A stretch of DNA of 64,000 bases from positions 1-64,000 of the forward strand of contig NZ_JTLI01000008.1 of NCBI RefSeq assembly GCF_000799075.1, in the 5' to 3' direction. The DNA is from Cetobacterium sp. ZOR0034 (GTDB taxonomy: Bacteria; Fusobacteriota; Fusobacteriia; Fusobacteriales; Fusobacteriaceae). Both the position numbers and the translations under genes were made by a program. Shown one piece after another: positions 40,130 to 54,319 of this stretch. The stretch's first letter is position 1. Every line of letters begins with the position of its first letter. The notes under the pieces were generated by a model. That model was not told the DNA's origin. It saw only the letters and a program-made list of their open reading frames with translations, and did no database searches.

Positions 40130-41479
40130 TTATACAGCTTTTTTTGCAACTGAAATATTCTCAACTGTACTCTTTTCAGTTTCTTCACTTTCAAGAGGTA
40201 GGATAATATTTAATAAAACAGCTATTGTACCAGAAACAACAATTCCAGATCCTCCAAATATAAGTTTAATACTTTCAGGGAAAATAGTAAGAGCTTCAGG
40301 AACATTTCCAAGTCCATATCCAAGACCTAAAGAAACAGCTAAGATAACAGAATTTCTATTTTTTAATGGTTCTTTTGTGATTAAGTTTATTCCACTGATA
40401 GATATCATAGCAAATACCATAACTAAGCTTCCACCGATAACACTAGCTGGGATTATAGTAAATAAAGCTCCAATTTTTGGAATGAAAGCCCCAACAACTA
40501 AGAACATCGCACCAGTTGCAACTACGAATCTACTCATGATACCAGTCATTGCAATGATACCTGTATTTTGACTGAAAGAAGTCGTAGGTAAAACTGAGAA
40601 TACAGCAGCTAAAGCACTTCCAAGTCCATCTGCAAGAATTCCACCAGATAATTCTTTATCAGTAGTTTCTCTTCCAGCTCCACCCATAGTAACTCCAGAC
40701 ATATCTCCAACAGTTTCAACAGCAGAAACAATAAACATTAAAATCATAGCTAATATTGCATCAAGATGGAATGCAAATCCAAACATTAAAGGTCTAGGTA
40801 CTGTTAAATAATCAGCTTGAACAAGAGGTTGTAAATCCACTTTTCCAAGAAGTAAAGCAACGATAAATCCAACAATAGTTCCAATAAAAATAGATCCAGT
40901 ACTTAAAATTCCTTTTGTAAATTGTTTGAAGAATACAACAGTGATAAGAACGATAGTTCCAATTAATAGATTTTCTAAAGATCCGAAATCAGGGGCACCT
41001 ACACCACCAGCAAAACTTTTTACTCCAACTGGTAAAAGAGATAATCCTATCGAAAGAACAACAACACCAGTAACGATAGGTGGGAAGAATTTTCTGACTC
41101 TTTTAATAATTAAACCTAAAAGTCCTTCAAATAATCCACCAATTAAAGCGGCTCCAAGAACTCCTTCAAAACCATATTTAGTTCCGATAGATATTGCAAC
41201 AGGGACGAAAGCAAAGCTTGTTCCAACAACGATTGGTAATCTAGCACCAATAGGTCCAAGAGTGTAAGCTTGAATTAAAGTGTTTAAACCGGCAACAAAC
41301 ATAGAAGCCTGAATAAGAAGTGTTTTTTGTTCAGATGAAAGTCCAAGAACTCCAGCAACTATAATGATAGGTGTAATATTACTAACGAACATAGCAAGTA
41401 TGTGCTGTAATCCTAAAGGTAAAGCCGTTTTTAGTTCAGGTACTCCATCTAAGTGATAAGGTGATCTGTTTTTTTTCAT
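40130..41479 (-). CDS. pbuX: Xanthine/uracil permease family transporter (PbuX-like)
   Basis: A 449-residue nucleobase transporter of the NCS2 family with about 12-14 helices. QHILAMFVSNITP near the N-terminus, and SAVETVGDMSGVT near 255 with the conserved glutamate, are typical. Xanthine is the likeliest substrate because the operon encodes a xanthine dehydrogenase and xpt. First gene of the operon; AGGAGGATT lies before its ATG and a guanine-class riboswitch precedes it. Confidence 0.9.
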   Translation of the reverse strand: MKKNRSPYHLDGVPELKTALPLGLQHILAMFVSNITPIIIVAGVLGLSSEQKTLLIQASMFVAGLNTLIQAYTLGPIGARLPIVVGTSFAFVPVAISIGTKYGFEGVLGAALIGGLFEGLLGLIIKRVRKFFPPIVTGVVVLSIGLSLLPVGVKSFAGGVGAPDFGSLENLLIGTIVLITVVFFKQFTKGILSTGSIFIGTIVGFIVALLLGKVDLQPLVQADYLTVPRPLMFGFAFHLDAILAMILMFIVSAVETVGDMSGVTMGGAGRETTDKELSGGILADGLGSALAAVFSVLPTTSFSQNTGIIAMTGIMSRFVVATGAMFLVVGAFIPKIGALFTIIPASVIGGSLVMVFAMISISGINLITKEPLKNRNSVILAVSLGLGYGLGNVPEALTIFPESIKLIFGGSGIVVSGTIAVLLNIILPLESEETEKSTVENISVAKKAV

Positions 41480-41555
41480 TTTTGATAATCCTCCTAAAAT
41501 TCTTTTTTGTGAATTTTACTCAATATATAGTTGGATTAAACTATATTTATAGAAA

Positions 41556-41607
41556 ATAAAAAAAGATTATCTTTTTTCATCTTCTACAAGTGAAAAATAG
41601 ATAATCT
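41556..41607 (-). terminator. Riboswitch-controlled terminator before pbuX
   Basis: On the minus strand AGATTATCT (41607-41599) pairs with AGATAATCT (41572-41564), followed by TTTTTTTATTTT. The upstream arm can alternatively pair with the segment that follows the aptamer, giving the usual terminator/antiterminator switch. Confidence 0.8.
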
Positions 41608-41633
41608 AAAATAGTTAGATAAGAAATCTATTT

Positions 41634-41706
41634 AATTCACCCATAGTGGCTAATTTAAGGTTAGCCGTAGAAACTTCCGACCGTATTACGGATATATATG
41701 AGTAAT
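41634..41706 (-). promoter_or_regulatory. Guanine-class purine riboswitch aptamer
   Basis: On the minus strand the aptamer has P1 ACTCAT/ATGGGT, the J1/2 ATAT stretch, a P2 hairpin, the conserved core AAGTTTCTAC, a P3 hairpin with CCTTAAA loop, and J3/1 ACTATGGG. The specificity base in ACTAT is C, which predicts guanine, hypoxanthine or xanthine-type ligands over adenine. It is followed by a terminator and pbuX, so ligand should switch the whole purine operon off. Confidence 0.93.
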
Positions 41707-41715
41707 TCTTTAATT

Positions 41716-41738
41716 TCCCTTGAAAATATTAAGGGAAT
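41716..41738. repeat. Inverted repeat at the prophage left end
   Basis: TTCCCTT and AAGGGAA separated by nine bases, between the integrase stop and the riboswitch. No strong T tract follows on either strand, so it is either a weak integrase terminator or part of the attachment site. Confidence 0.5.
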
Positions 41739-41748
41739 GTTATTGGTT

Positions 41749-41770
41749 GCACTTAAAATGCACTTAAAAT
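41749..41770. repeat. Tandem 11-base repeat beside integrase, candidate arm sites
   Basis: GCACTTAAAAT occurs twice in direct tandem, 16 bases beyond the integrase stop codon. Short direct repeats beside int are common binding sites for the N-terminal domain of tyrosine integrases. attL core is therefore expected nearby. Confidence 0.5.
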
Positions 41771-41786
41771 AATTAAGATTATAGTA

Positions 41787-42833
41787 TCACAACTCTTCCA
41801 ACATTGCAATAATTTTTTCACTAGAATCAGGGTATAGATGAGAGTATACATTTAAAGTGGTGTCAACTTTCTCATGTCCCAATCTCTTTGATATAGCTAA
41901 GGGATTAACACCCAAGTGAATTAAAAGTGACGCGTGAGAGTGTCTGAGGTCGTGAATTCTTATCTCTTTAACTCCCACTCTTTCAGCAAACTTTTTTATC
42001 TGTTTTCGTATGTTAGTTTGATGTAATCTAAAAAGTCTAGTTTCCATTTTTAAAGCGTATATCTTTCTAGTGTAAATCTTCAATATTTCTAATAATGAAT
42101 CAGTTATCATAATCTCTCTATTGCTGCTTTCAGTTTTTGGAGGAGTTACTAGATCCTCGCCATTTATTCTTGAAAGTGTTTTATTTATTTTTATAGTTTT
42201 TTTCTTAAAGTTTATATCTCCATACTCCAGTGCAAGAAGTTCACCTATCCTCATTCCAGTATAGAATAATAGATTCAATATAGTGTAAATATCAATTCTT
42301 TCCTCAGCTTCTGCACTAACTCTTTTAAAATCATCTATTGTCCAGATGTTTATTTCTGTACCTAGCTTTCCAATTGTTCCAGCTTTTGTAACTGGATTGT
42401 AGCTCAAATCATGAAATTTTACGGCATAGTTAAATACAGCAGTAAGGGTTGAATTTATCAATCTTAGATATGTTTGACTATATTCAGTTTCTTTCATTAA
42501 TAAATTTTGGAAAGTTCTTATATCGGCTGGAGTGATTTCGCTAAGTTTGTGGCTATTGAAATATGGAATGATTCTTTGAGTTAAAACTACTTTTCTTAAA
42601 TTTGCTGTACTGGCTTTTACTCTACAGCTAATATCATCTAAATATAGCTTACACATCTCTTCAAATGTAGATGTTATATTAGCATCAGGACTTGTTAAAA
42701 ATTCTCTTTCATATTCTAAAGCTTCTTTTTTAGTTTTAAAACCTCTTTTAAAACTTTGTTTTCTTTCTCCTGTATGGGTTATATAATAAAAACGGGATAT
42801 CCAAGTCCCGTTTTTATCTTTAGTTGCTGGCAT
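41787..42833 (-). CDS. int: Phage tyrosine integrase
   Basis: A 348-residue site-specific recombinase. N-terminal AP2-like arm-binding segment (1-50), SAM-like core-binding domain (about 55-150) and catalytic domain. Active-site residues are visible: R in TGMRIGELLAL near 193, HxxR in HDLRHSHASLL near 296, H in LGHEKVDTTLN near 318 and the nucleophile in VYSHLYP near 328. Last gene of the leftward operon, overlapping the excisionase-like gene by 14 bases. It reads towards the host purine riboswitch. Confidence 0.95.
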   Translation of the reverse strand: MPATKDKNGTWISRFYYITHTGERKQSFKRGFKTKKEALEYEREFLTSPDANITSTFEEMCKLYLDDISCRVKASTANLRKVVLTQRIIPYFNSHKLSEITPADIRTFQNLLMKETEYSQTYLRLINSTLTAVFNYAVKFHDLSYNPVTKAGTIGKLGTEINIWTIDDFKRVSAEAEERIDIYTILNLLFYTGMRIGELLALEYGDINFKKKTIKINKTLSRINGEDLVTPPKTESSNREIMITDSLLEILKIYTRKIYALKMETRLFRLHQTNIRKQIKKFAERVGVKEIRIHDLRHSHASLLIHLGVNPLAISKRLGHEKVDTTLNVYSHLYPDSSEKIIAMLEEL

Positions 42834-43011
42834 ATTTTTCTCCTTTTATTCCTAGTTTTTTAAAGAGAAACTCTCTATTCACTCTGCCGCGAATAGTCAT
42901 ATATCCCTCCTTCGCCATCTCTTCATTTACAGTTTTCATTATTTTATATGCAGTACATTTCTTTACCTTACATATCTCTACTACCTCATCTACTCTCAAT
43001 AGTTCATTCAT
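42820..43011 (-). CDS. Excisionase-like small DNA-binding protein
   Basis: A 63-residue protein with a winged-helix/MerR-like helix-turn-helix (LLRVDEVVEICKVKKCTAYK at 4-23) of the kind seen in phage excisionases. It overlaps int. Function as Xis is inferred from size, fold and position. AAGGGAG precedes the ATG, and a perfect 20-base palindrome lies just upstream of that site. Confidence 0.7.
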   Translation of the reverse strand: MNELLRVDEVVEICKVKKCTAYKIMKTVNEEMAKEGYMTIRGRVNREFLFKKLGIKGEKYASN

Positions 43012-43025
43012 CTATTTCTCCCTTC

Positions 43026-43045
43026 ATTTCGAACGCGTTCGAAAT
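43026..43045. promoter_or_regulatory. Perfect 20-base palindrome upstream of the excisionase-like gene
   Basis: ATTTCGAACGCGTTCGAAAT is its own reverse complement and sits 15 bases before the start codon, next to the ribosome binding site. It contains CGAAC and GTTCG half sites as in Gram-positive LexA boxes, but with a 2-base instead of a 4-base spacer. Either an operator or a recombination-protein site. Confidence 0.6.
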
Positions 43046-43063
43046 CATTAACCTATATGGATT

Positions 43064-43207
43064 TCAATAATTTTTATTACTATTCTCCATTCTCAATTCG
43101 TTTATTAATTTTTCATGTATTTCAATCTCACAATTTTCACAAGTATTATGATAATATTTAATTTCTTCTTCCGTTAAATTTTTGCCACAATATATGCAGG
43201 TACTCAT
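43064..43207 (-). CDS. Small zinc-ribbon protein
   Basis: A 47-residue protein with two CxxC pairs (CIYCG at 4-8 and CENC at 25-28) forming a likely zinc ribbon, and a charged C-terminal helix. Its ATG overlaps the stop of the gene before it by one base (TAATG), typical of coupled phage genes. Function unknown. Confidence 0.65.
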   Translation of the reverse strand: MSTCIYCGKNLTEEEIKYYHNTCENCEIEIHEKLINELRMENSNKNY

Positions 43208-43377
43208 TAATCCTCCTTGATTTCAAATCTACTAGCTAGATAACTTCCATAATCTCCACTTTCGTCGATTATATCTATCCATTCATCATCCAGCCATTCA
43301 TAAACTCTGTTAGTTTCATATTTTTTATTTAATTTAAGTTTTATAGTTCCATTATTATCTATACACGTAGCTTTCAT
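43207..43377 (-). CDS. Small acidic phage protein
   Basis: A 56-residue acidic protein (YEWLDDEWIDIIDESGDYG in the middle) with no recognised domain. GGAGGTATAA precedes its ATG. It is coupled to the zinc-ribbon gene downstream and follows the 426-residue gene by 13 bases. Confidence 0.65.
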   Translation of the reverse strand: MKATCIDNNGTIKLKLNKKYETNRVYEWLDDEWIDIIDESGDYGSYLASRFEIKED

Positions 43378-43390
43378 TTATACCTCCAAA

Positions 43391-44671
43391 TTACTTTCTT
43401 TTATAACCTATTCTATCTAAATAAACTTTTATATTTTGAGCTTTTAAAAACTCCCAATTTTCAGAATGTTCTCTTAGTTTATTTAAAGCTCTACCTATTC
43501 TTTCATCTTTATCTAAAGTGCATTTAATAATATTAGGGTTATATAACTCAACTCTTTTTTCATTAGCTTCTATGATAGTATCTTGATACTTCCCTTTTAT
43601 TTTTAAAGTGTACCAATCATCAAATTGGGTAACTATACCTCTAAATATTATTTTTCCTCTTCGATAATCTCTAACTAAGACTTCTTTATTTAAAAATTCA
43701 TGGTCTGCTGTACGAGTTCTTTCTGATTTTTCACATTCAATAAATTCAACTCCATATTTAGCCATACATTTTTTAAGTTTTAAAATTATAGTTCTAAAAA
43801 ATAGTTGTTCATGACGTGTAACTAAATCGTTATAGTAAATTAATGTTCTGTAATATTTATCCAATATTCTTATTTTTTTATCAGAGTTAGGAATATCAAA
43901 TATAAACTCTTTTTGTCTTGAATTGTAGATATATTTTGTTTTCAATGACTTTCTAAAGTTTCTCATAATAGTTCCAATTCTATCTTCTATCAACTCAAAA
44001 TCTTTATTGGTTATTTGGATATAGCTATCATTTACATCATAATGAATAATCATTTTGTTTTTATGTTTTCTAAATCCTGTTTTATATTTTCTTTTCAATT
44101 TTTTTATTGAGTTGTTTGAAAATTCTTTATTATTTTCATCAATTGGAATGTATTTACTTTCTCCACAATGGATACAAATGTATTCTACGGCATCAATATG
44201 AGGGAATTTATTTTCTCTAAGACTACCTCTTAAAGTATAGTCATCTTTTTCTTGCTTAATCCACAGATGATCACTTTTGTTTTTACAATTTGGTCTTATA
44301 GTTTTTATTTCATAACTATCAGCATATTCATGTTCCATATGTATTTCATACTCGTTTTCTTTGTAACAGTTCCTACATTCAAAAGTCCCATCATTTTCAT
44401 AGTATATATCGCTATCATCTAATTCATTCTCATGTCCACAAAATCTGCAAACAGCTTCTTCAGAATTATAATCAAGATTAGATCCTATTTTTTTCTCATA
44501 GCTATTCAAATACTGCTGATATTCTTCACAAACAAAATCCCAATCGCTTGCGAGTTCTTTTGCTTCTTCATCATCGCAAGCATTATTTTCTATATATTCC
44601 TCTTTAGTAAGAGAGCCATCACATAATATACAACTTCCTAGATATTCATCAAACTCGTGCATTGTTAACAT
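43391..44671 (-). CDS. Unknown phage protein with zinc-finger clusters
   Basis: A 426-residue protein that I cannot assign. It has three cysteine pairs resembling zinc fingers: CRFCG near 75 pairing with CRNC near 98, and CIHCG near 165, in an acidic N-terminal half. The C-terminal half is basic and contains a candidate small beta domain (VLVRDYRRGKIIFRGIVTQF near 335). Begins one base after the previous gene ends; GGAGG lies 8 bases before ATG. Confidence 0.6.
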   Translation of the reverse strand: MLTMHEFDEYLGSCILCDGSLTKEEYIENNACDDEEAKELASDWDFVCEEYQQYLNSYEKKIGSNLDYNSEEAVCRFCGHENELDDSDIYYENDGTFECRNCYKENEYEIHMEHEYADSYEIKTIRPNCKNKSDHLWIKQEKDDYTLRGSLRENKFPHIDAVEYICIHCGESKYIPIDENNKEFSNNSIKKLKRKYKTGFRKHKNKMIIHYDVNDSYIQITNKDFELIEDRIGTIMRNFRKSLKTKYIYNSRQKEFIFDIPNSDKKIRILDKYYRTLIYYNDLVTRHEQLFFRTIILKLKKCMAKYGVEFIECEKSERTRTADHEFLNKEVLVRDYRRGKIIFRGIVTQFDDWYTLKIKGKYQDTIIEANEKRVELYNPNIIKCTLDKDERIGRALNKLREHSENWEFLKAQNIKVYLDRIGYKRK

Positions 44672-45544
44672 TTATCTAGCCTCCATATTCTTCCAATGTT
44701 TTAAATTCATTCCAACATATTTTGCATATTTGCTCTCTTTCTTAGGTTGAACAGGAACTTTATTCTCTATTTCAACTTTAGTAAGCTCTAATGATTTTTT
44801 CAATTTAGTAATTGTAGTTTTCAGATATTTAAGATCTTTATCAAAATCATCTGGAAGCAGCTCTTTTAGTTTTTCTCTATATCCTTCAATTAATTCTTGA
44901 ATAATGAAAAATCTATAATAAATCTCTTTACAAACATTCTTTTCAGCAGCAAAGTCTGAGTTACTGAACTCTAAACTATGTTTTTTAGAAAAAACCTCAT
45001 TTGTATTTTCTAGAAGCTCTACTAAGCTATCTTGGTTGTACATAAATTCGTTATATTTAAACATTCTCATAATCATTCTTCCAAGATACTTTGTAGAGGA
45101 GTTCCAAGAGTCTATAACCTCTTTAGAGAACTCAACCTTTTCAGGTAACTCTATTGTAACGGATTCTCTAAGCTGTGAAGTCATCGTTTTATAATCGTTC
45201 TTCAATTTATCATCTACTTGAACCTCTTTTTCAAAAGCTATTTCAGTGCCTATAAATTTAGATATTAGTATATCTAGCTCTACTGCTGTATAAAAAGCTA
45301 CTAGATTTGGAGAAGGGATTATGTTATCAAACACCTCTTTTAGAAATAACTTGATATTTGCTTTAACTTGAGTTTGATACCTTAACTTTTGATTTCTATC
45401 TTTAATAGATTCAACTTTTTTCATATCCAAGAATAAACTTTTCGACTGCTCGTTGATGTAGCCCTCACCACTCTCTGTAAATCTCATTAGAACAGCTATA
45501 TTTCTTTCACCATATATCTCTTTTAATTTTTTACCTAAACTCAC
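44672..45544 (-). CDS. Unknown phage protein, helical
   Basis: A 290-residue, mostly helical protein with coiled-coil segments near 60-75 and 225-265 and no known motif. GTG 45544 is preferred because GAGGAGG lies six bases upstream; an in-frame ATG 45562 would place that site inside the gene. It overlaps the neighbouring HTH gene by 14 bases. Confidence 0.6.
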   Translation of the reverse strand: MSLGKKLKEIYGERNIAVLMRFTESGEGYINEQSKSLFLDMKKVESIKDRNQKLRYQTQVKANIKLFLKEVFDNIIPSPNLVAFYTAVELDILISKFIGTEIAFEKEVQVDDKLKNDYKTMTSQLRESVTIELPEKVEFSKEVIDSWNSSTKYLGRMIMRMFKYNEFMYNQDSLVELLENTNEVFSKKHSLEFSNSDFAAEKNVCKEIYYRFFIIQELIEGYREKLKELLPDDFDKDLKYLKTTITKLKKSLELTKVEIENKVPVQPKKESKYAKYVGMNLKHWKNMEAR

Positions 45545-46028
45545 TTTGCTCCTCCTCATCAATTTGTATTCTTTTTATAGCTCTTGCTATTCCAGCTTTT
45601 GTCATTCCAGTAATTTTAATTAAATCTTGTTTGGTCATAGTTTTATAGTTTTCTTTTATGAAAGCACCCCATTTTGTATTTTTCCTTTTTTTCTTACAGA
45701 TTTGTCCAGTTGCTAGTAATCTATCCACAGTAGACTGAACCTTGTGTATTGATACTCCTAGCATGTTTGAAATGTGTTGTATTGATGATGTACTATAATG
45801 CTTTCTAACGAACTTGTCACACTCATCGCTTCTATTTAATAATATCTTTAGATCCCTAGATAATTTCTCATGATAACACTCAATTGCGTATTCAATATCC
45901 TCTTTACGCAACTCTCTAGCTATATATGTTTTCTTTTTAGTGATAACGAACAGAGTTTTTTCATGAGAATAAACCCTATCCGCTACATTTATAATCTTTT
46001 CAAGTTCAGTTCTATTCAGCTGTATCAT
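45531..46028 (-). CDS. Phage DNA-binding protein with helix-turn-helix segments
   Basis: A 165-residue protein with two HTH-like segments: SIQHISNMLGVSIHKVQSTV near 85 and KQDLIKITGMTKAGIARAIK near 130. It may be a regulator or accessory partition protein. Start ATG 46028 overlaps the ParB-like gene; an in-frame GTG at 46040 is possible. No clear Shine-Dalgarno, suggesting coupled translation. Confidence 0.6.
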   Translation of the reverse strand: MIQLNRTELEKIINVADRVYSHEKTLFVITKKKTYIARELRKEDIEYAIECYHEKLSRDLKILLNRSDECDKFVRKHYSTSSIQHISNMLGVSIHKVQSTVDRLLATGQICKKKRKNTKWGAFIKENYKTMTKQDLIKITGMTKAGIARAIKRIQIDEEEQSEFR

Positions 46029-46731
46029 CTGCAACACCAACTAATTTCAGATTATCTTTATTTTCAAACTCTTTATTTCTCTCAGAGATATTTTTTCTCA
46101 ATTCTTTTAAATATTTTTCTAAAACTTCCAACTCTCTTTCAGCTGCATGGAGCTGCTTAGAGTCCATTTTATTTAAACTTTTCTCTAATTTTTCAAAGTT
46201 TTTATAATTTACACATTTAACTTCTTTTTGTAAAAAGTTAGTATTAGTTTCAATAGGAACTATATCAATAGTTTTATTTTCGTTCATACGAGCATCTAAA
46301 AATATTTTTATTTCCTCAGTAGTTGTCAGCTGAAGTTCAGCAGCATCATAGATTATGTTTATAGCAATCTCTTTGTTAGAGAGCATCTTTATAGCTCTTA
46401 CTGATAACGATGTAACCCATTCTTTCTTGTCTCCGAAGTGCATATAAAGCTCATATCTTCTAAGAAGCTCACTAACTTTATCTTTACTAAGCCCAATTCC
46501 TCCATACCACTCCATAAAGCTTCCATCAGCTTTCAGCTTTAGTGAGTTTTCATATAAAGCTTTACAAACTTTAAACATAGAATCAGACATACTTCTGAAA
46601 TTTCTAAAAATAATAGCTTCATTTTCAATAATCTCTTTTTTTAAATTATCTTCAATAGCATATTTTTCAAAGTCAAATATGCTATTATAATCCTCTTGCA
46701 TTTTGCTTTTTAAACTTTGTAAAGCTTTCAT
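46012..46731 (-). CDS. ParB-like partner of ParA (tentative)
   Basis: A 239-residue protein whose start overlaps the parA stop by one base. A helical segment near 65-95 (EWYGGIGLSKDKVSELLRRY) looks like an HTH, and the C-terminal third is a coiled coil (175-225), fit for dimerisation. No ParB CTPase or nuclease motif is visible. The call rests on position behind ParA; it could also be an adaptor of another type. Confidence 0.5.
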   Translation of the reverse strand: MKALQSLKSKMQEDYNSIFDFEKYAIEDNLKKEIIENEAIIFRNFRSMSDSMFKVCKALYENSLKLKADGSFMEWYGGIGLSKDKVSELLRRYELYMHFGDKKEWVTSLSVRAIKMLSNKEIAINIIYDAAELQLTTTEEIKIFLDARMNENKTIDIVPIETNTNFLQKEVKCVNYKNFEKLEKSLNKMDSKQLHAAERELEVLEKYLKELRKNISERNKEFENKDNLKLVGVADDTAE

Positions 46732-47429
46732 TACAGAATCGCCTCCAGAACAGCCTTAAATACTTCCTGAGTGGCTTCCACTCTTTTAGAGTTACATTCC
46801 CATATTGTTTTACCTTCATCAATCAATTTTCCGATGATGGCACTTTGAGAGATTGGAACAGTCAGAAGTATATCGCTTCCTTTTAGAACTTCCTCTAATC
46901 CTCTGTAGTACTCTTTTTCCTTAGCTGTTTTTGTCCATTTATTTATTACAACAGCTGATAGTTTTGAAAGCTCAATATTTTCTAACATTGCTGTAATACT
47001 ATTTATCGTAACCTTATCAGCGAACCCAGGAACAACAACTTTGTCAGCTAAATCTACAAATATTTGGTCAATCCCAATCATTGGAGTTGAGTCTATTAAT
47101 ATATATTTGTATTTAGACCTCATATTGTTTATAAATTGGCTTAGTTTCTCTTTTGATGCACTGTTTATATGTGAAGCTTTCAAAGGTATGAAATATAGCT
47201 TCTCACGAAGTCTCACGACATCCCCAGTACCAGTTTTAATCCAGTTTTCTAAACCAGTTGATGTTTCTACCTTCTCCATTCCTGCGTACTCTAATATATT
47301 ATTTTGGTTATCAGATGTTATTATCAAAACATCTTCTCCACTCAAATACTGTAATCCATGTGCTAATTGCAGAGTCATCCAGCTTTTTCCAACTCCACCT
47401 TTATTATTTTTAATTGCTATTACTTGCAT
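46731..47429 (-). CDS. ParA-type partition ATPase
   Basis: A 232-residue deviant Walker ATPase. The KNNKGGVGKSWMTLQLA motif (residues 7-23) contains the signature lysine, Walker B is YILIDSTP near 107, and PGFADKVTINSI near 131 fits the family. It should drive segregation of an extrachromosomal replicon. Its presence in an integrated prophage points to a plasmid-like phase. A 41-residue gene overlaps its start. Confidence 0.88.
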   Translation of the reverse strand: MQVIAIKNNKGGVGKSWMTLQLAHGLQYLSGEDVLIITSDNQNNILEYAGMEKVETSTGLENWIKTGTGDVVRLREKLYFIPLKASHINSASKEKLSQFINNMRSKYKYILIDSTPMIGIDQIFVDLADKVVVPGFADKVTINSITAMLENIELSKLSAVVINKWTKTAKEKEYYRGLEEVLKGSDILLTVPISQSAIIGKLIDEGKTIWECNSKRVEATQEVFKAVLEAIL

Positions 47430-47545
47430 AATTCCACCCCTATTTTCTCAAAAAGTTCATCTATATTGTATCCAGAGAAAACTCTTCTTTCTCCTTTGAT
47501 AACTACCGATGTAAATACTTTATCTCCAATAAATTTTAATGACAT
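47420..47545 (-). CDS. Small protein upstream of parA
   Basis: A 41-residue basic peptide with a strong GGGAGGA site 7 bases before its ATG. It overlaps the first codons of parA by 10 bases, so it is likely the leader cistron coupling parA translation. No homology recognised. Confidence 0.55.
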   Translation of the reverse strand: MSLKFIGDKVFTSVVIKGERRVFSGYNIDELFEKIGVELCK

Positions 47546-47558
47546 TTTAAATCCTCCC

Positions 47559-47588
47559 TTGACATTTTGAGAGATTAAATGTTATACT
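47559..47588 (+). promoter_or_regulatory. Predicted plus-strand promoter antisense to par leader
   Basis: TTGACA, 18 bases, TATACT on the plus strand, opposite to the partition operon. A terminator begins about 16 bases after the -10 hexamer, so any transcript would be only about 40 bases long. Confidence 0.45.
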
Positions 47589-47626
47589 TCAATTACCAGT
47601 CGAGGTTTAACATTTGTTGAATCTCT
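47570..47626. repeat. Interrupted dyad upstream of the partition operon (parS or operator candidate)
   Basis: AGAGATT-AAATGTTA on the left is mirrored by TAACATTT-(GTTG)-AATCTCT on the right, around a 23-base centre. It lies 25 bases before the first gene of the parA operon, the usual place of a centromere-like site or autoregulatory operator. Confidence 0.5.
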
Positions 47627-47639
47627 TTTTTTATTTTTT
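47604..47639 (+). terminator. Plus-strand terminator
   Basis: GGTTTAAC/GTTGAATC stem (with G-U pairs) and ATTT loop followed by a long T tract. It would end the short antisense transcript. Confidence 0.55.
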
Positions 47640-47653
47640 GTAACTTTTTCATT

Positions 47654-48040
47654 TTATCCAACTTTTGATTCGAAGAATTTTAATTCAAATTTTTGATTTT
47701 CATTTTTTAACTGCTCAGATCTATAAGATAGATTGCTATAAAGTTTATCTCTTAAATCATCACTAAGCTTTTCATAATGAAGTTGCTTTTCTAAATCAGC
47801 TTTTATGAAGTTTGAATATCTATTTACCCAGTTACTGAAAGTTTTATCCTGGAACTGCTCTGCAAACTTTTTTAATCTTTCAAGAGCTTCTCTAGAAACT
47901 TTGATATACTCATCTCTTCTCGCGTCGTCTAAGGCATCAATTTGATAGTCTATTTCAACAGTGGACTTAGTTTCAAAGATAACTCCTGTAGTTCCCATTG
48001 TTAAGCTTAAAGCTTCATCAATCATTGTTGGCTTTCTCAT
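47654..48040 (-). CDS. Unknown phage protein
   Basis: A 128-residue charged, helical protein with no recognised domain (YIKVSREALERLKKFAEQF near 46). It overlaps the preceding gene by one base (TAATG). Second gene from the leftward promoter. Confidence 0.6.
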   Translation of the reverse strand: MRKPTMIDEALSLTMGTTGVIFETKSTVEIDYQIDALDDARRDEYIKVSREALERLKKFAEQFQDKTFSNWVNRYSNFIKADLEKQLHYEKLSDDLRDKLYSNLSYRSEQLKNENQKFELKFFESKVG

Positions 48041-48306
48041 TAGCTACAACCTCCATTTTCTGATTTCAGAAACATTAAAATATTTTTTTCTTTTCGCCTT
48101 ATAAATTTATAAAAAATGTTATCTTCTAATTCATCATGGAAAAAGTTTCCTTTATCATTCTCTTTGATTTCAACATTTAACATTCCAGACAGATCATCTT
48201 CATCTAAGATAAAAGATGTAGTTACCTCATTTATCATTTTCTCTTTATAAAATTCATTGAATATATCTCTAACTTGAAATTCAAGCTCTTGTTCTCTTGT
48301 TCTCAT
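48040..48306 (-). CDS. Unknown phage protein, first gene of leftward operon
   Basis: An 88-residue acidic protein, no recognised domain. ATG 48306 is chosen because TAGGAGGAAAG precedes it; an in-frame ATG 48342 lies farther up without such a site. It starts the leftward operon that runs to int. Confidence 0.6.
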   Translation of the reverse strand: MRTREQELEFQVRDIFNEFYKEKMINEVTTSFILDEDDLSGMLNVEIKENDKGNFFHDELEDNIFYKFIRRKEKNILMFLKSENGGCS

Positions 48307-48363
48307 CTTTCCTCCTAAAATATTTTTATTTATAAAATTCAAACTTTAAAAATCGTGCTATAA

Positions 48364-48384
48364 TTGTCCAATAAAGTTGGACAA
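48364..48384. promoter_or_regulatory. Repressor operator 1 (leftward promoter)
   Basis: TTGTCCAA-TAAAG-TTGGACAA, perfect 8-base arms. On the minus strand it overlaps a candidate promoter TTGTCC-16-TATAGC for the leftward operon. Confidence 0.82.
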
Positions 48385-48426
48385 AGTGTTTAAATTTTTT
48401 TGAAAACTCATTTTACAAGTTAATTA

Positions 48427-48447
48427 TATCCAATAATCTTGGATATG
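48427..48447. promoter_or_regulatory. Repressor operator 2
   Basis: ATATCCAA-TAATC-TTGGATAT, perfect 8-base arms with the same inner TCCAA-N5-TTGGA as operator 1. Lies 71 bases before the repressor gene. Confidence 0.82.
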
Positions 48448-48465
48448 TCAAATAAAATTTGACGA
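48447..48465. promoter_or_regulatory. Repressor operator 3
   Basis: TGTCAAA-TAAAA-TTTGACG, one mismatch, centre 19 bases from operator 2, so two dimers could bind side by side. Weaker match to the consensus, as expected for a graded operator set. Confidence 0.7.
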
Positions 48466-48517
48466 AATTATGAAAAATCTTTTAAAATATAAAATTAATA
48501 ACGAAGGAGGATGATTA

Positions 48518-49252
48518 ATGAAGACTTTAGCTCTAACTCTTAAAATGTTAAGAGAAAAAAAAGGACTTTCTATGGAACAACTTGCAGAAAAAGCAAAAGT
48601 TAGTAAGGGTATCATTGGAGAAATTGAAAGGGACAAGACTAGGTCCACAGTAAAAACATTGAATAAAATAGCTAACGCTTTAGAATTGACAATTGCAGAA
48701 AAAAATGATTTAGATAATGCTTTTTTACAAAAAAATACATCAGATATAAATGTTTTGAATATAGGCGATCCCATAAAGATGATGGTAATACCTGTTTTTT
48801 CTAGTGTTGCAGCTGGAATGGGTTATATACCTGATGCAGAACCAATAGATTTTATAAGTATTCCAGAAGTTGGCGGAGAATGTATCGGAATTAGGGTGGC
48901 TGGTGATAGCATGGAGCCTACATTTTATAATAATGATATAGTTGTTATAAAAAAAGATATTGAGGTCGGATTAGGGGAAGTAGGTGTATTTTTAAATAAA
49001 CATTCTGGAGAGTCTTGGGTTAAAAGATTAAAAAAGAAAAATGGAGTTTATGTACTAGAGAGTGATAATCACATGTTTAAAGATAAAGAGATAAAATCAG
49101 ATGAAATATGTTGTTGTGGTAAAGTTATAAATGTGGTTAAAAAAGATTTGAAAAAAAGAGTAAATCCGCTGCTTGAAAAAATAGAGATGCTAGATCCTAA
49201 GCAACAGGAAATTTTAGAAATGATGATTAACGGATTGTTAGATAAAAAATAA
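48518..49252 (+). CDS. CI-like phage repressor, XRE HTH plus S24 peptidase
   Basis: A 244-residue lysogeny repressor. HTH_3 domain at 5-60 (LSMEQLAEKAKVSKGIIGEI), then a LexA/CI-type self-cleaving domain: Ala-Gly cleavage site in SVAAGMGY near 97, catalytic serine in GDSMEPTF near 133 and lysine in SWVKRLKKK near 172. It should maintain lysogeny and cleave after DNA damage. GAAGGAGG precedes the ATG. Operators 2 and 3 lie upstream for autoregulation. Confidence 0.95.
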   Translation: MKTLALTLKMLREKKGLSMEQLAEKAKVSKGIIGEIERDKTRSTVKTLNKIANALELTIAEKNDLDNAFLQKNTSDINVLNIGDPIKMMVIPVFSSVAAGMGYIPDAEPIDFISIPEVGGECIGIRVAGDSMEPTFYNNDIVVIKKDIEVGLGEVGVFLNKHSGESWVKRLKKKNGVYVLESDNHMFKDKEIKSDEICCCGKVINVVKKDLKKRVNPLLEKIEMLDPKQQEILEMMINGLLDKK

Positions 49253-49350
49253 ATAAAAATGGGGGGATAAAAATAAAGTCTCAAATTGTAAGTATAAAGT
49301 CTATAAAGGAGAGTTGTAGTCATCTATACGATAATAACTGCCTTAATTTT

Positions 49351-50553
49351 TTGTATAAGAAGAAATTTTCACTAGCTTATGCTTTTGATTTATCAACGGA
49401 TAAAATAGAATTATTTGTTCCAGTACAATTTTCACTGCTAGAAGATTCAAATGTTGTTTTAGAATTTTGTAAAAGAGTATTGGACCTTAGATTTTCAAAT
49501 AGAAAGCAAATTACAATAAACTTCTCGAAATGTATATTATTGGATGTTGCAGCTCTATCTATTTTGAATACGTTTCTTTTACATCTCAGAGATGAAGCAA
49601 ACTCAAAAGAAAAAAATATTGTGTTTAAAACTACATTTACAGGGAAAACTAATTTAGATATATTAATCTATAAAGTTGGGATTATAACATTGTTAAAACT
49701 AGAAAATTTTCCAGAGAAAACAAAGCAGTATATTGAAAAATTAAAGCTAGAAATAGATGATAAAAATATAAAGACATTACCGCTATTAGCTGGTGGTGGA
49801 ACAACCATCGAATTTTTAAGAGAGTTGATTATAAAGAACAAAACTGCAAAGTACATAAGCGATAACTCTAAGTTTGGAACAGAGGTAGTGAGATTTGTAA
49901 ATGAATGTTTAGAGACGGTTGGGTATATTCTGAATTTAAAAGGCAATCGGAACTTTAAAGGAATGATAGGGGAACTAGCAACAAATTCACTTGAGCATTT
50001 GGGTGAAGAGATGTGCCAGCTTTATTGTACTGGATATTATATAATAGATAAAAATACAGAAGGAGAAGGCAGTATAGTATTTTTTAATTTTGGAAATACT
50101 ATATATGAAAGCTTGTTACACGATTCAACCAAAGATATAAAAGAAAAATTGTCGAGATTGTCAAAGTTGCATTATTTTGATGACCTTTTCACAGAGGAAA
50201 ATTTGTGGACATTGGCAGCACTACAACCTAAAATAAGTAGAAAGTATGATAGAAAAATAAATAATGAGAGAGGAACAGGGACGATAAAATTGTTAGAAGG
50301 CTTTAAAAATTTTTCAAGTGATAAAGAAAAATTGATGACAATAGTATCTGGTAAGACTCAAATATTATTTGATAATTCAAAAATTTCAAGTTATAATGAT
50401 ATAGATAAAAGAGTAGCATTAAATGAAGAAAATAGTTTAGAAACTCGTCCCTCTTCGAAGTATCTTAAAAATTTGAAACATAGCTTTCCAGGGACGATTA
50501 TATATATACAATTTTCTTTAAGTGGAGAATATTTAAAAAAGGGGGTGGAATAA
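49351..50553 (+). CDS. STAS-GHKL ATPase fusion, candidate immunity regulator
   Basis: A protein of 400 residues or more. Residues 40-95 look STAS-like (ITINFSKCILLDVAALSILN). Residues 195-320 form a GHKL/HATPase fold: N-box in GMIGELATNSLEHLGEEM near 202, a G1-like FFNFGNTIYESL near 242, and G2 in NERGTGTIKLLEGF near 300. The architecture recalls SpoIIAB/SpoIIAA partner switching. The TTG at 49351 has no ribosome site; the open frame extends upstream to ATA 49273, placed correctly behind GGGGGG. First gene of a three-gene cargo between repressor and Cro-like gene. Confidence 0.7.
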   Translation: MYKKKFSLAYAFDLSTDKIELFVPVQFSLLEDSNVVLEFCKRVLDLRFSNRKQITINFSKCILLDVAALSILNTFLLHLRDEANSKEKNIVFKTTFTGKTNLDILIYKVGIITLLKLENFPEKTKQYIEKLKLEIDDKNIKTLPLLAGGGTTIEFLRELIIKNKTAKYISDNSKFGTEVVRFVNECLETVGYILNLKGNRNFKGMIGELATNSLEHLGEEMCQLYCTGYYIIDKNTEGEGSIVFFNFGNTIYESLLHDSTKDIKEKLSRLSKLHYFDDLFTEENLWTLAALQPKISRKYDRKINNERGTGTIKLLEGFKNFSSDKEKLMTIVSGKTQILFDNSKISSYNDIDKRVALNEENSLETRPSSKYLKNLKHSFPGTIIYIQFSLSGEYLKKGVE

Positions 50554-50909
50554 TGATAAAAAAAATTGAATTAGAAAAATTTTTAACTCCTGGCGGAGAT
50601 TATTTATCTGGACGTCCTGAAGGTGAAGGTGCAAGAGGAATTGAAAAATTAGATGAGTTTGATTTAAACAAAGATAACAGTATAGAACTTTTAATTTCTG
50701 ATAGCATTATTGGAGTAAATATCTCTTTTTTCTTGGGATTACTTAGTATATCATTAAAGCCTTTTCAAACTAGAGAGGATATTCTAAAGAAAGTAAAATT
50801 GACATTTACAGGAGAGGACCTAGAAATAAAAGAACTTGTAACTGAGGATTTCGAGTACATGATAAAAAAAATCTTAGATAAGAGGGATATAAATGACATC
50901 CTCAAGTAA
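50553..50909 (+). CDS. STAS-like (DUF4325-type) protein, partner of the GHKL ATPase
   Basis: A 118-residue protein. The core ELLISDSIIGVNISFFLG followed by a helix and KVKLTF resembles the STAS-like DUF4325 domain, which is often encoded beside GHKL ATPases. It starts on the last base of the preceding stop (TAATG) and overlaps the next gene by 17 bases, so all three are translationally coupled. Role as a phosphorylatable or nucleotide-gated antagonist is inferred. Confidence 0.55.
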   Translation: MIKKIELEKFLTPGGDYLSGRPEGEGARGIEKLDEFDLNKDNSIELLISDSIIGVNISFFLGLLSISLKPFQTREDILKKVKLTFTGEDLEIKELVTEDFEYMIKKILDKRDINDILK

Positions 50910-51417
50910 GGCAGCTATAGAAATAGGATCTTGGACGGACATTATAAATTTGGTAATTGTTTGTTTTACTTTGATTTTTAATGGAGTTAAAAATAGAACA
51001 GCAAACAAAGAGGATATGGAAGAGAAACTTAGATTATTCAAACTTAAAACAAAAGCTAGTTGGTTTGAAAGAGTTGTGTTAAAAAAGTTGGAAATCTATG
51101 ATAAGTTTTTCAAAAAAAGTAGAGATATTTATTTTTCTATAGATAAAAGCAACAGAAAAAGTAAAATATCTGCAAGAAGAATGTATCAACAGAAAAGAGA
51201 TGAAATTAGAGATGAAATGTTACCTCTAAAGGCATTTGACCAAAGTTTATTTGATGAGCTAGATAAAATAATTGAAGCGTTGGAAAATAAGCTATTTTCT
51301 AATGAGGAAGTAAGAAAAGGAGAACTAAAAGAGTATCAGGTATTTTTTACAACAGTTCTTATTAATTATGAAAAAGACGAGTATGAGGTAAAGAATATAA
51401 TACATTTAAATAGTTAA
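50893..51417 (+). CDS. Membrane-anchored coiled-coil protein, candidate effector
   Basis: A 174-residue protein with one hydrophobic segment near the N-terminus (about 14-31, IINLVIVCFTLIFNGV) and a long, strongly charged helical remainder (35-150). No enzymatic motif. A membrane protein as last gene of a signalling pair suggests the effector of an abortive-infection circuit, like RexB of lambda, but nothing proves this. It ends at a strong terminator. Confidence 0.6.
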   Translation: MTSSSKAAIEIGSWTDIINLVIVCFTLIFNGVKNRTANKEDMEEKLRLFKLKTKASWFERVVLKKLEIYDKFFKKSRDIYFSIDKSNRKSKISARRMYQQKRDEIRDEMLPLKAFDQSLFDELDKIIEALENKLFSNEEVRKGELKEYQVFFTTVLINYEKDEYEVKNIIHLNS

Positions 51418-51423
51418 AAAGCA

Positions 51424-51466
51424 CAAAAAAAGAGGTTGATAGTTAATCAATCTCTTTTTTGTTTGT
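51424..51466 (+). terminator. Terminator closing the repressor-cargo transcript
   Basis: AAAAAGAGGTTGAT/ATCAATCTCTTTTTT hairpin with GT-rich tail containing TTTTTTG, 7 bases after the third cargo gene. It separates the lysogenic transcript from the Cro-like promoter. Confidence 0.85.
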
Positions 51467-51493
51467 TTATTTTGAATTTTTATCAAAAATAAT

Positions 51494-51522
51494 TTGACTT
51501 GTCCAATTTTATTGGATATAAT
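51494..51522 (+). promoter_or_regulatory. Early rightward promoter with embedded operator 4
   Basis: TTGACT, 17 bases, TATAAT, a near-consensus promoter. TTGTCCAA-TTTTA-TTGGATAT (51499-51519) lies exactly between and over the two hexamers, matching the operator consensus at 48.4 kb. Repressor binding should block this promoter. Confidence 0.85.
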
Positions 51523-51552
51523 TATATATATTGATTCTGTGAGGTGATAGTT

Positions 51553-51762
51553 TTGAGAAAAGAAGAAATATTGTATAAAAAAATTAAAGATATACAGCAA
51601 GAAAAAGGGTTAACAGTTGCCAAAATAGCGGAAAAAACAGGCGTAAGCAAACAGACCGTTTCACATAGAATACTGAACATAAAAAAAAACGGCATTGTTA
51701 ATTTAAGGTTTATTCAGCAAATAGAAGAATTGGCAGGGGTAGATATAATTAAATTTTTTTAA
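51553..51762 (+). CDS. Cro-like small HTH protein
   Basis: A 69-residue XRE-type DNA-binding protein (LTVAKIAEKTGVSKQTVSHR near 19-38). TTG 51553 is chosen because GAGGTG lies six bases upstream; GTG 51544 is in frame within that site. First gene behind the operator-controlled early promoter, the position of Cro. Confidence 0.78.
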   Translation: MRKEEILYKKIKDIQQEKGLTVAKIAEKTGVSKQTVSHRILNIKKNGIVNLRFIQQIEELAGVDIIKFF

Positions 51763-51767
51763 TTATA

Positions 51768-51788
51768 TTGTCCAATTAAATTGACTAG
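51768..51788. promoter_or_regulatory. Operator 5 (imperfect)
   Basis: TTGTCCAA-TTAAA-TTGACTAG: one perfect half site and one degenerate one, 5 bases after the Cro-like stop codon, also within a possible weak -35 region. Confidence 0.5.
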
Positions 51789-51846
51789 AGCTTTTAATAG
51801 GCTCTTAATTAAAACTTATCACCAGATGGTAGGTTTTAATTAGGAG
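51789..51846 (+). promoter_or_regulatory. Structured leader element, copy 1
   Basis: AGAGC/GCTCT hairpin, then a hairpin of 15 pairs in which AATTAAAA-CTTATCA pairs with TGGTAGG-TTTTAATT around a 5-base loop. The 3' arm runs directly into AGGAGGTG of the next gene. Copies 2 and 3 share the TTATCA/TGGTAG inner stem while the outer stems differ. Confidence 0.7.
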
Positions 51847-51855
51847 GTGATTGAT

Positions 51856-52152
51856 GTGAATGATAAAAATAATATTTATGAACTCAAAAACATAAATGGA
51901 AATTTAGAAATTTTAATACATCACGATAAAACCGCTATCAATAAAGAGGCTACAGAAAATCAAGTTATTGAATTTCCGTCTTTAGAATTTGCAAAAGAAG
52001 GGGATATAGAAATAACTATAACTAAGAATTCAATAATGGTTAAAGAAATTGGAGAAGATGGTGAAGTGTTATTTAAAAAACATGCTTTTTTAAAAGATAA
52101 AACAAAAATCTGCTCTTTGGGCATTAGTTTGGCTGATATAACTGAGAAGTGA
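51856..52152 (+). CDS. Unknown early phage protein
   Basis: A 98-residue protein, probably beta-rich, no recognised domain. GTG 51856 sits 8 bases after AGGAGG; a GTG inside that site at 51847 is also in frame. An ATG-TGA start-stop pair overlaps the GTG. Its N-terminus (NDKNNIYEL) resembles that of the gene at 52903 (KDKTEKIYDL), suggesting related gene starts. Confidence 0.6.
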   Translation: MNDKNNIYELKNINGNLEILIHHDKTAINKEATENQVIEFPSLEFAKEGDIEITITKNSIMVKEIGEDGEVLFKKHAFLKDKTKICSLGISLADITEK

Positions 52153-52156
52153 TAAA

Positions 52157-52741
52157 TTATTTTTTTATTTGTTCTAAGATTTTATTTTTCAAATCAATAT
52201 CGGCTTCAATAGCATTATTTGTATTGTATTCCAATCCAAATAAATCACGATAGTGATTAACGATTTCTTTTTCATCCTTAGTGAGAATAGGATTGATTTT
52301 TCTAAGTAAAGATTGGTAATTCATTTTATTCCAAATAAAATTTGAAATACAGCTTTTATTTTCCTTATAAAAAAGATTCTTAAATCTGCTACCAACAGAT
52401 ACAGGAATTTCGTAAGGGTTATCATTAGGAATAAATAGTATATTTTCGTTGTATCTAGATGTTATGTGGTGAAGAGTTTTGTTTGGTGATTCCCAAACAG
52501 CAAAAGATTCTGCTTCAAAAATAATATCAGACTCTAGAAGTGATATACCATATACTGTTTTACCTCCGTATTCTTCTGAATATCTGTTTACAGTTTCGAA
52601 AGAATCGTTAAGATTAATTTTTTTTAGTTGGATATTAAATTCTATTTCACGTTTTAAAAAAAAGTGTTGGGTTCCTATTGCAAAACGTTTAAGTTCTTGG
52701 TGAAAAGAATTTGGACAACGTAATTTTGAATAGTTTCTCAT
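52157..52741 (-). CDS. Unknown protein encoded against the early genes
   Basis: A 194-residue cytosolic protein without a recognised domain, on the minus strand within a rightward operon. AGTATTAGAT then GGAGGT precede ATG 52741, and TATAAT lies 39 bases upstream. Opposite orientation and own signals suggest a moron expressed in the lysogen. Confidence 0.6.
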   Translation of the reverse strand: MRNYSKLRCPNSFHQELKRFAIGTQHFFLKREIEFNIQLKKINLNDSFETVNRYSEEYGGKTVYGISLLESDIIFEAESFAVWESPNKTLHHITSRYNENILFIPNDNPYEIPVSVGSRFKNLFYKENKSCISNFIWNKMNYQSLLRKINPILTKDEKEIVNHYRDLFGLEYNTNNAIEADIDLKNKILEQIKK

Positions 52742-52800
52742 AATACCTCCAGTATTAGATTCTCAGTTATATCAATTAAATTATAGCATTAAAAATAAAA

Positions 52801-52899
52801 AAGAACCTACAGAAAAGTAGGCTCTTAGTTCAAGCTTATCACTTAACTCTTCCCCTAGAGTTAATTTCCCCCCCGAAAATAGTGGTAGGTTTCAATTAG
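52801..52899 (+). promoter_or_regulatory. Structured leader element, copy 2
   Basis: A first hairpin (CCTAC/GTAGG) leads to AGTTCAAG-CTTATCAC, which pairs with GTGGTAGG-TTTCAATT just before AGGAGGTG. The loop holds an extra hairpin TTAACTCT/AGAGTTAA and a run of seven C. Inner stem is identical to copy 1. Confidence 0.65.
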
Positions 52900-52902
52900 G
52901 AG

Positions 52903-53343
52903 GTGATTAACACGAAAGATAAAACTGAAAAAATTTATGATTTAATTAATTTTACTGAAAATGAAGTGTTACCTAAACTTGAATACATCAAAAGTCAAAT
53001 GGATGAACTTTTTCCAGAATCAAAGGACATTAGACACATGAACGCTTTTAAAGAGAATATTGGAGCCAGATTAAAAAAAGATGATTCGATAGGAAATATT
53101 TTAAAAGTTTTAGCTGAGAATATACAAAAGCATGAGTTTATATCTGAAGCTTATGAAGCTAAAACAGAGTTACTATATCATTTGTTAGGAAAAATGTTAA
53201 AAGGAAACTTAAAAAGTGCAATTGATGAAAGAGCCATAGCCGATTTCATCTCTACACTAACAAAAGCTGGATATGATTTGAGTTGTACACCAGATAGAAT
53301 AACTATCGAAAAAACATGGAAGGCTAACTATAAAAAAAGTTAG
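52903..53343 (+). CDS. Unknown early phage protein, unusual start
   Basis: A 146-residue helical protein, no recognised domain (a C-terminal AIADFISTLTKAGYDLS segment). The only standard in-frame start, GTG 52903, lies inside AGGAGGTG. By alignment with the leader at 51856 the natural start position is the ACG at 52912. Either the GTG or a rare ACG start is used. Confidence 0.55.
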   Translation: MINTKDKTEKIYDLINFTENEVLPKLEYIKSQMDELFPESKDIRHMNAFKENIGARLKKDDSIGNILKVLAENIQKHEFISEAYEAKTELLYHLLGKMLKGNLKSAIDERAIADFISTLTKAGYDLSCTPDRITIEKTWKANYKKS

Positions 53344-53419
53344 CCACACTTAATGAATTAATAACCTAATGCTTCTGCAATTTTCTTTGCAAAATCTAAA
53401 GAGCAAGGAGGTGATTGAT

Positions 53420-53698
53420 GTGATTCTTGAAAAAATAAAAATCCTCTTTAAGAACAAGAATAGAGAAAACTCTTTTAAGGGAATGAGTGATGCTATACCA
53501 AATGTTAAAAATGAAGCTTTTGAAGAATATACAAAAAATCCATTTACTTGTGTTAAGTTATTTAAATTAAAATATGGATATGATGGCTTGTTAGCCATCT
53601 TGCAGTATAACGCTTTAAATAATATTGTGACTCCTTTTTACGTGATTAAAGAATACGAAGATCCATTTTTTACGGTATTTGTCTCAAACGAAATTTAG
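53420..53698 (+). CDS. Small early phage protein
   Basis: A 92-residue protein, no recognised domain; YEDPFFTVFVSNEI at the end. GTG 53420 is chosen because AAGGAGGTGATT is correctly spaced. As at 51856 an ATG-TGA pair overlaps the GTG. It converges with the minus-strand membrane protein gene across a shared hairpin. Confidence 0.55.
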   Translation: MILEKIKILFKNKNRENSFKGMSDAIPNVKNEAFEEYTKNPFTCVKLFKLKYGYDGLLAILQYNALNNIVTPFYVIKEYEDPFFTVFVSNEI

Positions 53699-53732
53699 TA
53701 TGCACAACTTTTATAAGTTGAGCATACTAATC
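53698..53732. terminator. Hairpin between convergent genes
   Basis: TAGTATGC and GCATACTA flank CAACTT/AAGTTG, giving about 14 pairs; placed between two convergent stop codons. T tracts are poor, so termination strength is uncertain. Confidence 0.55.
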
Positions 53733-54319
53733 AAAATTTTAAGAAGATCTGGTGAAATTTTCTCTAAAAAAGTAATAAGAATAGTGAGAGCCATAATAGT
53801 GTCTACTATAATTTCGATAGTTTTTTTTAGAGTAGAATGAATCTTGAATGGAAATAGTGATAAAAAATTAGTTACTATAAATCTTACTCCTTTTTTCAGC
53901 CAGTAAAAAGGGTTTATAAGATTGATAGCGTAGTTCTGTATTTTTATTTCGCTTTCCACTTGAATCGCTTTAGAAAACAATGCGTTTAAAGAATAACTAA
54001 GGATATTCTTTAAATATCTAGTTAACAGAGATTGATAATTAAAAAGAACATATTCTAAAAGTGACTGTGATGGTAAATATCCAGATTTTAATTCGCCTAA
54101 AGATGTTGAATTTATAAGTTTACAATTTTGATTTAAAAATAGTAAGTGTTCATCTAAGTCACCTATTCCTAAGTCGATTTTATTTCTAAATTCTTTAAAA
54201 TGATTTATAGATTTTGCTATTGTTCTTTTGATGTTAATAATAATAATAAGTTCTTTTAGAGAAATGAAAAATCCAATTATAAGTAAGATGATAAAAATAT
54301 TTTTTAAAGTAAATGACAT
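53711..54319 (-). CDS. Membrane protein moron
   Basis: A 202-residue protein with an N-terminal transmembrane helix (about 7-28), a helical middle, and one or two hydrophobic segments at the C-terminus (about 170-200). No motif recognised. It is on the minus strand within rightward early genes and has its own near-consensus promoter. A membrane protein expressed from a lysogen could act in superinfection exclusion; that is inference. Confidence 0.6.
   Translation of the reverse strand: MSFTLKNIFIILLIIGFFISLKELIIIINIKRTIAKSINHFKEFRNKIDLGIGDLDEHLLFLNQNCKLINSTSLGELKSGYLPSQSLLEYVLFNYQSLLTRYLKNILSYSLNALFSKAIQVESEIKIQNYAINLINPFYWLKKGVRFIVTNFLSLFPFKIHSTLKKTIEIIVDTIMALTILITFLEKISPDLLKILISMLNL

Follow-up and report, generated by a model that had tools for sequence, protein, structure and literature searches.

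A probable partition operon overlapped by a predicted antisense RNA in an integrated Cetobacterium prophage

Prophage, integration site and leftward operon

The window, i.e., the entire 64,000-nucleotide stretch analyzed here (G000:C8:1-64000), belongs to a Cetobacterium sp. ZOR0034 assembly of 2.74 Mb in 121 contigs, and harbors part of a 41.9-kb prophage that spans C8:41684-83552. The prophage is bounded by exact 40-bp repeats, the left of which (attL core, 41684-41723) is located inside a full-length host purine riboswitch aptamer (41624-41721, minus strand; RF00167, 67.9 bits, positions 1-102 of 102), with the right (attR, C8:83513-83552) lying outside the window. A xanthine/uracil-type permease gene, named by eye, is situated downstream of the riboswitch (40130-41479). 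When left flank, core and right flank were joined, the resulting sequence matched relatives across the junction (90.5% over 443 bp in genome G004), indicating that the empty site exists. The bacterium's own assembly contains exactly two copies of the core, attL and attR, and the attP junction is absent from these 2.74 Mb. Integration into this riboswitch attB restores the aptamer on the permease side and shifts any upstream promoter 42 kb away, so that the int end of the phage may now drive the permease; a literature search for a prophage attB within a riboswitch yielded no clear case.

Contractile-tail-like genes were named by eye from the ORFs of the prophage, as was a DGR-like pair outside the window, in which a reverse-transcriptase-like protein (C8:81047-82111; L009 17047-18111) is encoded downstream of a possible variable tail protein (C8:79498-80670; L009 15498-16670). 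The rightward arm encodes a phage replication initiation protein (54524-55540, plus strand; phrog_11233, 1.1e-34), in front of which no antisense unit of the kind described below was found. Both phage structural genes and plasmid maintenance genes are present in the prophage, a combination that is one of the features by which phage-plasmids are recognized.

The plasmid-type genes belong to an unbroken run of minus-strand genes that extends from position 48342 to the integrase gene at 41787. From its upstream end, this run includes a conserved 128-aa gene (47654-48040), a short leader cistron, parA, its partner gene, and genes for a 169-aa HTH-like protein (45531-46040; weak matches to MarR and to phage regulator/initiator families) and for two unknown proteins of 296 aa (44672-45562) and 426 aa (43391-44671). 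Two small ORFs of 56 aa (43207-43377) and 47 aa (43064-43207) bridge the gap before a 63-aa protein in the xis position (42820-43011; phrog_989, 3.1e-17, function unknown), which is followed by a tyrosine integrase (41787-42833; Phage_integrase 4.1e-24, phrog_1 1.6e-73). parAB and int are accordingly contained in one leftward run, for which a single transcript is predicted. The initial annotation had placed ParA in the same operon as xis and int; the continuous same-strand run to int is in line with this, and the name 'xis' is not established by the phrog_989 match.

A leftward early promoter (TTGACA-17-TATAAT, 12 of 12 consensus positions; 48423-48451, minus strand) precedes the run, and a CI-like S24 repressor is encoded divergently (48518-49252, plus strand; Peptidase_S24 9.7e-19, phrog_4). 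CI-type operators are positioned just downstream of the promoter (TCCAATAAAGTTGGA, 48367-48381) and between its -35 and -10 elements (TCCAATAATCTTGGA, 48429-48443), and an operator-like sequence covers the -35 element (TCAAATAAAATTTGA, 48448-48462). Since operators of this type overlap the promoter, a lysogen is expected to keep the par-int operon silent.

At the distal end of the run, a strong terminator-like hairpin on the plus strand (42786-42817) lies within the start of int and may reflect coding constraint, and the int start on contig C76 of the same genome has an inverted repeat that shares an arm with this hairpin. A PreQ1 riboswitch-like match within the xis-like gene (42846-42879) reached 26 bits against a gathering threshold of 39 and is probably due to chance.

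ParA, its partner and candidate parS sites

The full ParA with deviant Walker motif that had been proposed from the sequence is confirmed: the 232-aa ATPase (46731-47429, minus strand) carries the deviant Walker A motif NNKGGVGKS and matches Pfam AAA_31 (2.8e-17) and CbiA (1.9e-13) as well as the PHROG 'ParA-like partition protein' (6.6e-30). The coupled partner gene (46012-46731, minus strand), which starts on the last base of parA, and the leader cistron (47420-47545, minus strand; 41 aa), which overlaps the parA start and has homologues, likewise proved to be as first described. The closest ParA outside the genome itself is 69% identical (G048:C46, also CAMTIW010000046.1), as is a second copy within the genome, on contig C76, and both of these ParA cassettes end in a related integrase. 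ParAs adjoining plasmid rep genes are 40-45% identical to that of the window. A scan of viral contigs with the single ParA returned no relatives, nor did a scan with the partner alignment.

Pfam assigned no family to the partner of the window and the ParB N-terminal domain was not matched; a weak match to UPF0137 (4.7e-5, below the cut-off) was obtained solely for the partner encoded on the plasmid-like contig C74. The partner was modeled with AlphaFold from 8 sequences (mean pLDDT 72), and the model was compared with 192 chains using VIA-align, which placed M. xanthus ParB first (Z 8.4; 98 residues, 2.9 A, model residues 47-151), with Noc (7.9), KorB (7.2), Spo0J (6.9) and SopB (5.4) among the further rows. 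DNA-binding domains of the ParB family fill the top eight rows (Z 8.4 to 5.4, residues about 47-151); middling Z values are common in such comparisons, and the rows after these eight are unrelated ATPases with Z of 5.1 and below. A Foldseek search against the PDB returned nothing at E <= 0.001 (best 1.9). By this fold comparison, the partner models as a putative ParB-type DNA-binding protein that lacks the ParB N-terminal domain.

An earlier search for parS, based on 7-base arms and repeated words, produced nothing convincing common to the phages, and the candidate site emerged from a later search for long perfect palindromes. The prophage contains three perfect palindromes of at least 16 bp, two of which are identical, i.e., the 20-bp ATTTCGAACGCGTTCGAAAT, located at 43026-43045 just before the xis-like gene and, outside the window, at C8:67528-67547 in an intergenic position between structural genes. 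The pattern TTTCGN8CGAAA occurs at two places in the 2.74-Mb assembly, both in this prophage, as against 11 per strand for the reversed-pattern control. ATTTCGAACGCGTTCGAAAT is therefore presented as a candidate parS, a putative binding site, at 3.7 kb and 20 kb from parA and in neither case adjoining it.

Comparable palindromes accompany other ParA genes and are situated within parB or next to it in related phages and plasmids: ATTTCGCAAGCTTGCGAAAT is found about 1 kb after parA in both G048:C46 and G028, and TTTCGN4-8CGAAA occurs near parA in 21 of 49 non-redundant ParA loci, plasmids included, with a density of 0.115 per kb around parA versus 0.0146 per kb elsewhere. The stretch searched began 1 kb ahead of parA and ended 3 kb behind it (17 of the 49 loci have short flanks only), and the remaining 28 loci have no such pattern within it; the window itself was scored as a miss because its nearer palindrome is 3.7 kb from parA. 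As the TTTCG...CGAAA class was picked after viewing the copies of the window, L072 and L144, the enrichment is not independent for these loci, and the other loci are independent. In twelve phage ParB genes a palindrome lies within the coding sequence, where the half sites are kept and the encoded peptide varies (FDFESYE, FDFGTFE, FDFGSRE, FRNFRN...); the parB of the window has no in-gene palindrome. The reading of this locus as a partition system is thus supported, and is strengthened by the ParB-type fold of the partner and the predicted parS sites.

A predicted antisense RNA over the par leader

The dyad noted upstream of parA is real (47566-47626) and was found to hold a plus-strand promoter followed directly by a terminator. 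The promoter (TTGACA-18-TATACT, with an extended -10; 47559-47588) and an intrinsic terminator with seven Ts (47602-47625) are predicted to produce a 38-nt antisense RNA (47595-47632) opposite the leader of the par mRNA; countertranscribed RNAs are recognized by such a layout, in which an opposite-strand promoter and terminator span the target's leader. Such a promoter-terminator pairing with a score of at least 10 occurs once only on both strands of the 64-kb window. As plain single-stranded DNA, the dyad folds modestly better than shuffled sequences (z -2.05; 9 of 200 as good). Rfam returned no match at the antisense unit, in either the window (41500-57000, E up to 1) or ten related loci (gathering threshold).

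The conservation of this layout was assessed through the 128-aa gene that lies upstream of the unit, which was matched 38 times across 16 of the 61 genomes of the family and was also found on seven IMG/VR contigs; 43 profile matches reduced to 33 distinct downstream stretches, of which 31 were non-redundant. At a score of at least 9, an antisense unit follows the gene in 18 of the 31 loci versus none on the sense strand, with an average of 0.19 in 100 shuffles (maximum 3), while at a score of at least 10 the corresponding figures are 13 of 31, none and 0.05. The background of such units amounts to 0.022 per stretch of the same length. Chance may account for the weak units of L089, L090, L098 and L100, which score 9 or lack a clear target. 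The unit stands before the leader and ParA in G048:C46 and G013, and contig C76 has the same layout twice, before a replication gene and before the parA operon. Small ORFs resembling the leader cistron come after the antisense unit in relatives.

RNAalifold independently predicted the same stem between 5' and 3' arms in four par leaders and in five leaders of the other type, with both-sided changes in five of ten and seven of thirteen pairs, respectively; these smaller sets were used since the 5' arms came out of register when all ten leaders were aligned with MAFFT. Across nine leaders, arms paired in cis averaged -14.6 kcal/mol versus -6.1 in trans, and 20,000 permutations produced no value as good. 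The window has one of the weaker stems, which reached -8.2 in the 20-nt duplex test, with 19% of trans pairs as good. When the part covered by the antisense RNA was masked, leaders of the second type formed a different hairpin. This hairpin overlaps the Shine-Dalgarno sequence and precedes a T run, which makes the layout attenuator-like. The alternative hairpin over the Shine-Dalgarno sequence is weak in the window (5 bp, with an anti-Shine-Dalgarno pairing of 5-6 bp) and has no T run, so that control would be translational; pairing of the 3' arm with the Shine-Dalgarno sequence is barely better in cis than in trans (p 0.0475, borderline). Taken together, the conserved layout and the compensating stems indicate that the dyad is a predicted promoter-terminator unit for an antisense RNA, which probably keeps the partition genes in check.

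Related prophages, competing explanations and known systems

Among 33 unique loci of the 128-aa gene with more than 2.5 kb downstream (34 rows, as L166 appears twice), 20 contain ParA, in 15 cases (of 20) together with a tyrosine or serine integrase on the same strand within 9 kb; parAB together with an integrase is the rule in prophages of this group. Of the 17 loci that have an antisense unit, 13 contain ParA, as do 7 of the 16 that lack one, and with a Fisher p of 0.157 (on 34 rows) the two are not significantly linked. In G013, the same par module has an integrase of the serine type (named by eye) as its neighbor, and three contigs of this genome (L121-L126) represent attL (C1), attR (C3) and exactly the junction of phage end to phage end, i.e., attP (C5), at the shared 15-bp core. 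This attP means that DNA sequenced from a relative included the phage as a circle or in tandem, which is not the same as stability; a tandem prophage or lytic induction are alternative sources of the contig.

Two further elements were observed in this survey. The 13.4-kb contig C76 carries a second par-int element (L011, G000:C76, 1-8507), which could be either a satellite or a prophage that is broken, and whose two antisense units precede a 42-aa leader with a replication gene and a 108-aa gene with parA, respectively. Numerous genes of chromosomal type, as well as an early region like that of Funu1, are found in L058 (NZ_CP077186, F. animalis pSB029A), a 219-kb plasmid-labelled record.

We consider it probable that the locus represents a plasmid-descended parABS system, embedded in the leftward early operon of a prophage that integrates, and that it partitions the circular phage genome under antisense control. 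This suggests active transmission of the circular form to daughter cells, before integration or after it. ParA and the ParB-type protein would act on the two TTTCG...CGAAA palindromes and so distribute a circle that would be present once a cell has been infected, prior to integration, or following excision. In a lysogen, the repressor would act at the promoter to keep the operon closed, and any leader mRNA that leaks through would be caught by a constitutive 38-nt antisense RNA; upon firing of the operon, the antisense RNA would scale the output of the leader, ParA and ParB, and perhaps of Xis and Int, to the number of template copies, in analogy to the countertranscribed RNAs of plasmid rep genes. 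The translational switch would set the 3' arm of the leader against the Shine-Dalgarno sequence. We infer antisense transcription, this switch, binding of ParB to parS, and partition with its timing. It is a more tentative proposal that fusobacterial integrating prophages of a widespread group combine, within the early operon, a complete parABS with a copy-sensing antisense RNA that sets rep or par output, giving a regulated episomal phase between infection and integration and a form intermediate between integrating phages and phage-plasmids.

The initial annotation had gone further in suggesting a probable phage-plasmid, and a dual-state element, whose lysogens are either integrated or stably episomal, with par and a copy-sensing antisense RNA maintaining the episome for many generations, would explain the full plasmid-type parABS (parS being a candidate), the occurrence of such par modules in real Cetobacterium and Fusobacterium plasmids, the antisense units before replication genes in relatives and the attP contig of G013. 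We regard it as unlikely, given that the CI-type operators cover the only strong promoter, that a phage replication protein and no plasmid Rep was found among the proteins scanned, and that the prophage is integrated between two 40-bp att copies with no attP in its own assembly; the single-contig genome G024, moreover, holds both of its related prophages within that one contig. Stable maintenance as a plasmid is thus not supported, whereas the proposed switching between integrated and episomal states is plausible in view of the G013 attP junction found beside an integrated copy, even though the assembly of the window lacks this junction.

Somewhat less likely still is a role of ParAB in regulation or DNA positioning during lytic growth, be it genome organization, repression of the operon, or help in replication or packaging. 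Expression should indeed be early and lytic, a second candidate site is located in the structural-gene arm (C8:67528), and the par genes of N15 can reportedly affect late gene expression; against this, bona fide plasmids carry related ParA-ParB genes that are accompanied by TTTCG...CGAAA palindromes. That the dyad at 47566-47626 is itself parS or an operator, its promoter and terminator overlapping by accident, is highly improbable. Many type Ib systems have their centromere as an inverted repeat just upstream of parA, which is where this dyad lies, but its arms differ in sequence among relatives whose partners are 60% identical, while their pairing, the promoter and the terminator are kept, and the dyad was rejected as parS on these grounds.

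With regard to the preferred reading of a partitioned circular stage, the maintenance of par and int together under a repressor makes this a concrete and testable case for such a stage in integrating phages, and possibly a route between phages and phage-plasmids. The group also adds a set of very short predicted antisense RNAs without an Rfam match. A literature search found no paper on the combination of parABS, an antisense RNA and an integrase in a prophage.

Several known systems share individual elements with this locus. Fusobacterium phage Funu1 (KR131710) encodes a ParA and a partner that are 39% and 32% identical, respectively, with a replisome organizer nearby and an integrase; it differs in having neither an antisense unit at a score of at least 10 nor a TTTCG...CGAAA site near parA. 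The rep-parA-parB cassettes of Cetobacterium and Fusobacterium plasmids resemble the locus in their ParA (40-45% identical), in the partner gene that comes next and, in several cases, in their palindromes, but have rep adjoining parA and lie outside an int operon. The plasmids pT181 and pIP501 possess antisense-controlled attenuators, to which the sense-strand terminator that overlaps the Shine-Dalgarno sequence upstream of the relatives' phage replication genes may be compared, unlike the alternative hairpin of the window with its missing T run. The 48-nt antisense RNAII of pMV158 was called the smallest characterized in 2015 (PMC4485353). It resembles the predicted 38-nt RNA of the window in being a very short countertranscript, located between two operon genes and complementary to the next leader, yet it controls repB of a rolling-circle plasmid, whereas the predicted RNA of the window lies ahead of a leader cistron and parA and belongs to a prophage (PMC4485353). 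A phage parallel is provided by cluster A mycobacteriophages such as RedRock, in about 20% of which parABS takes the place of the integration cassette, with an extrachromosomal prophage (PMC7157519). These are likewise temperate phages with a plasmid-type parABS and an adjacent noncoding RNA, unlike which the window keeps parAB and an integrase in one operon of an integrated prophage (PMC7157519). The best-studied parABS phages, then, carry the partition cassette in place of the integrase, whereas the whole group described here keeps both modules, in one repressor-controlled operon and with a plasmid-like antisense RNA predicted before the rep or par genes.
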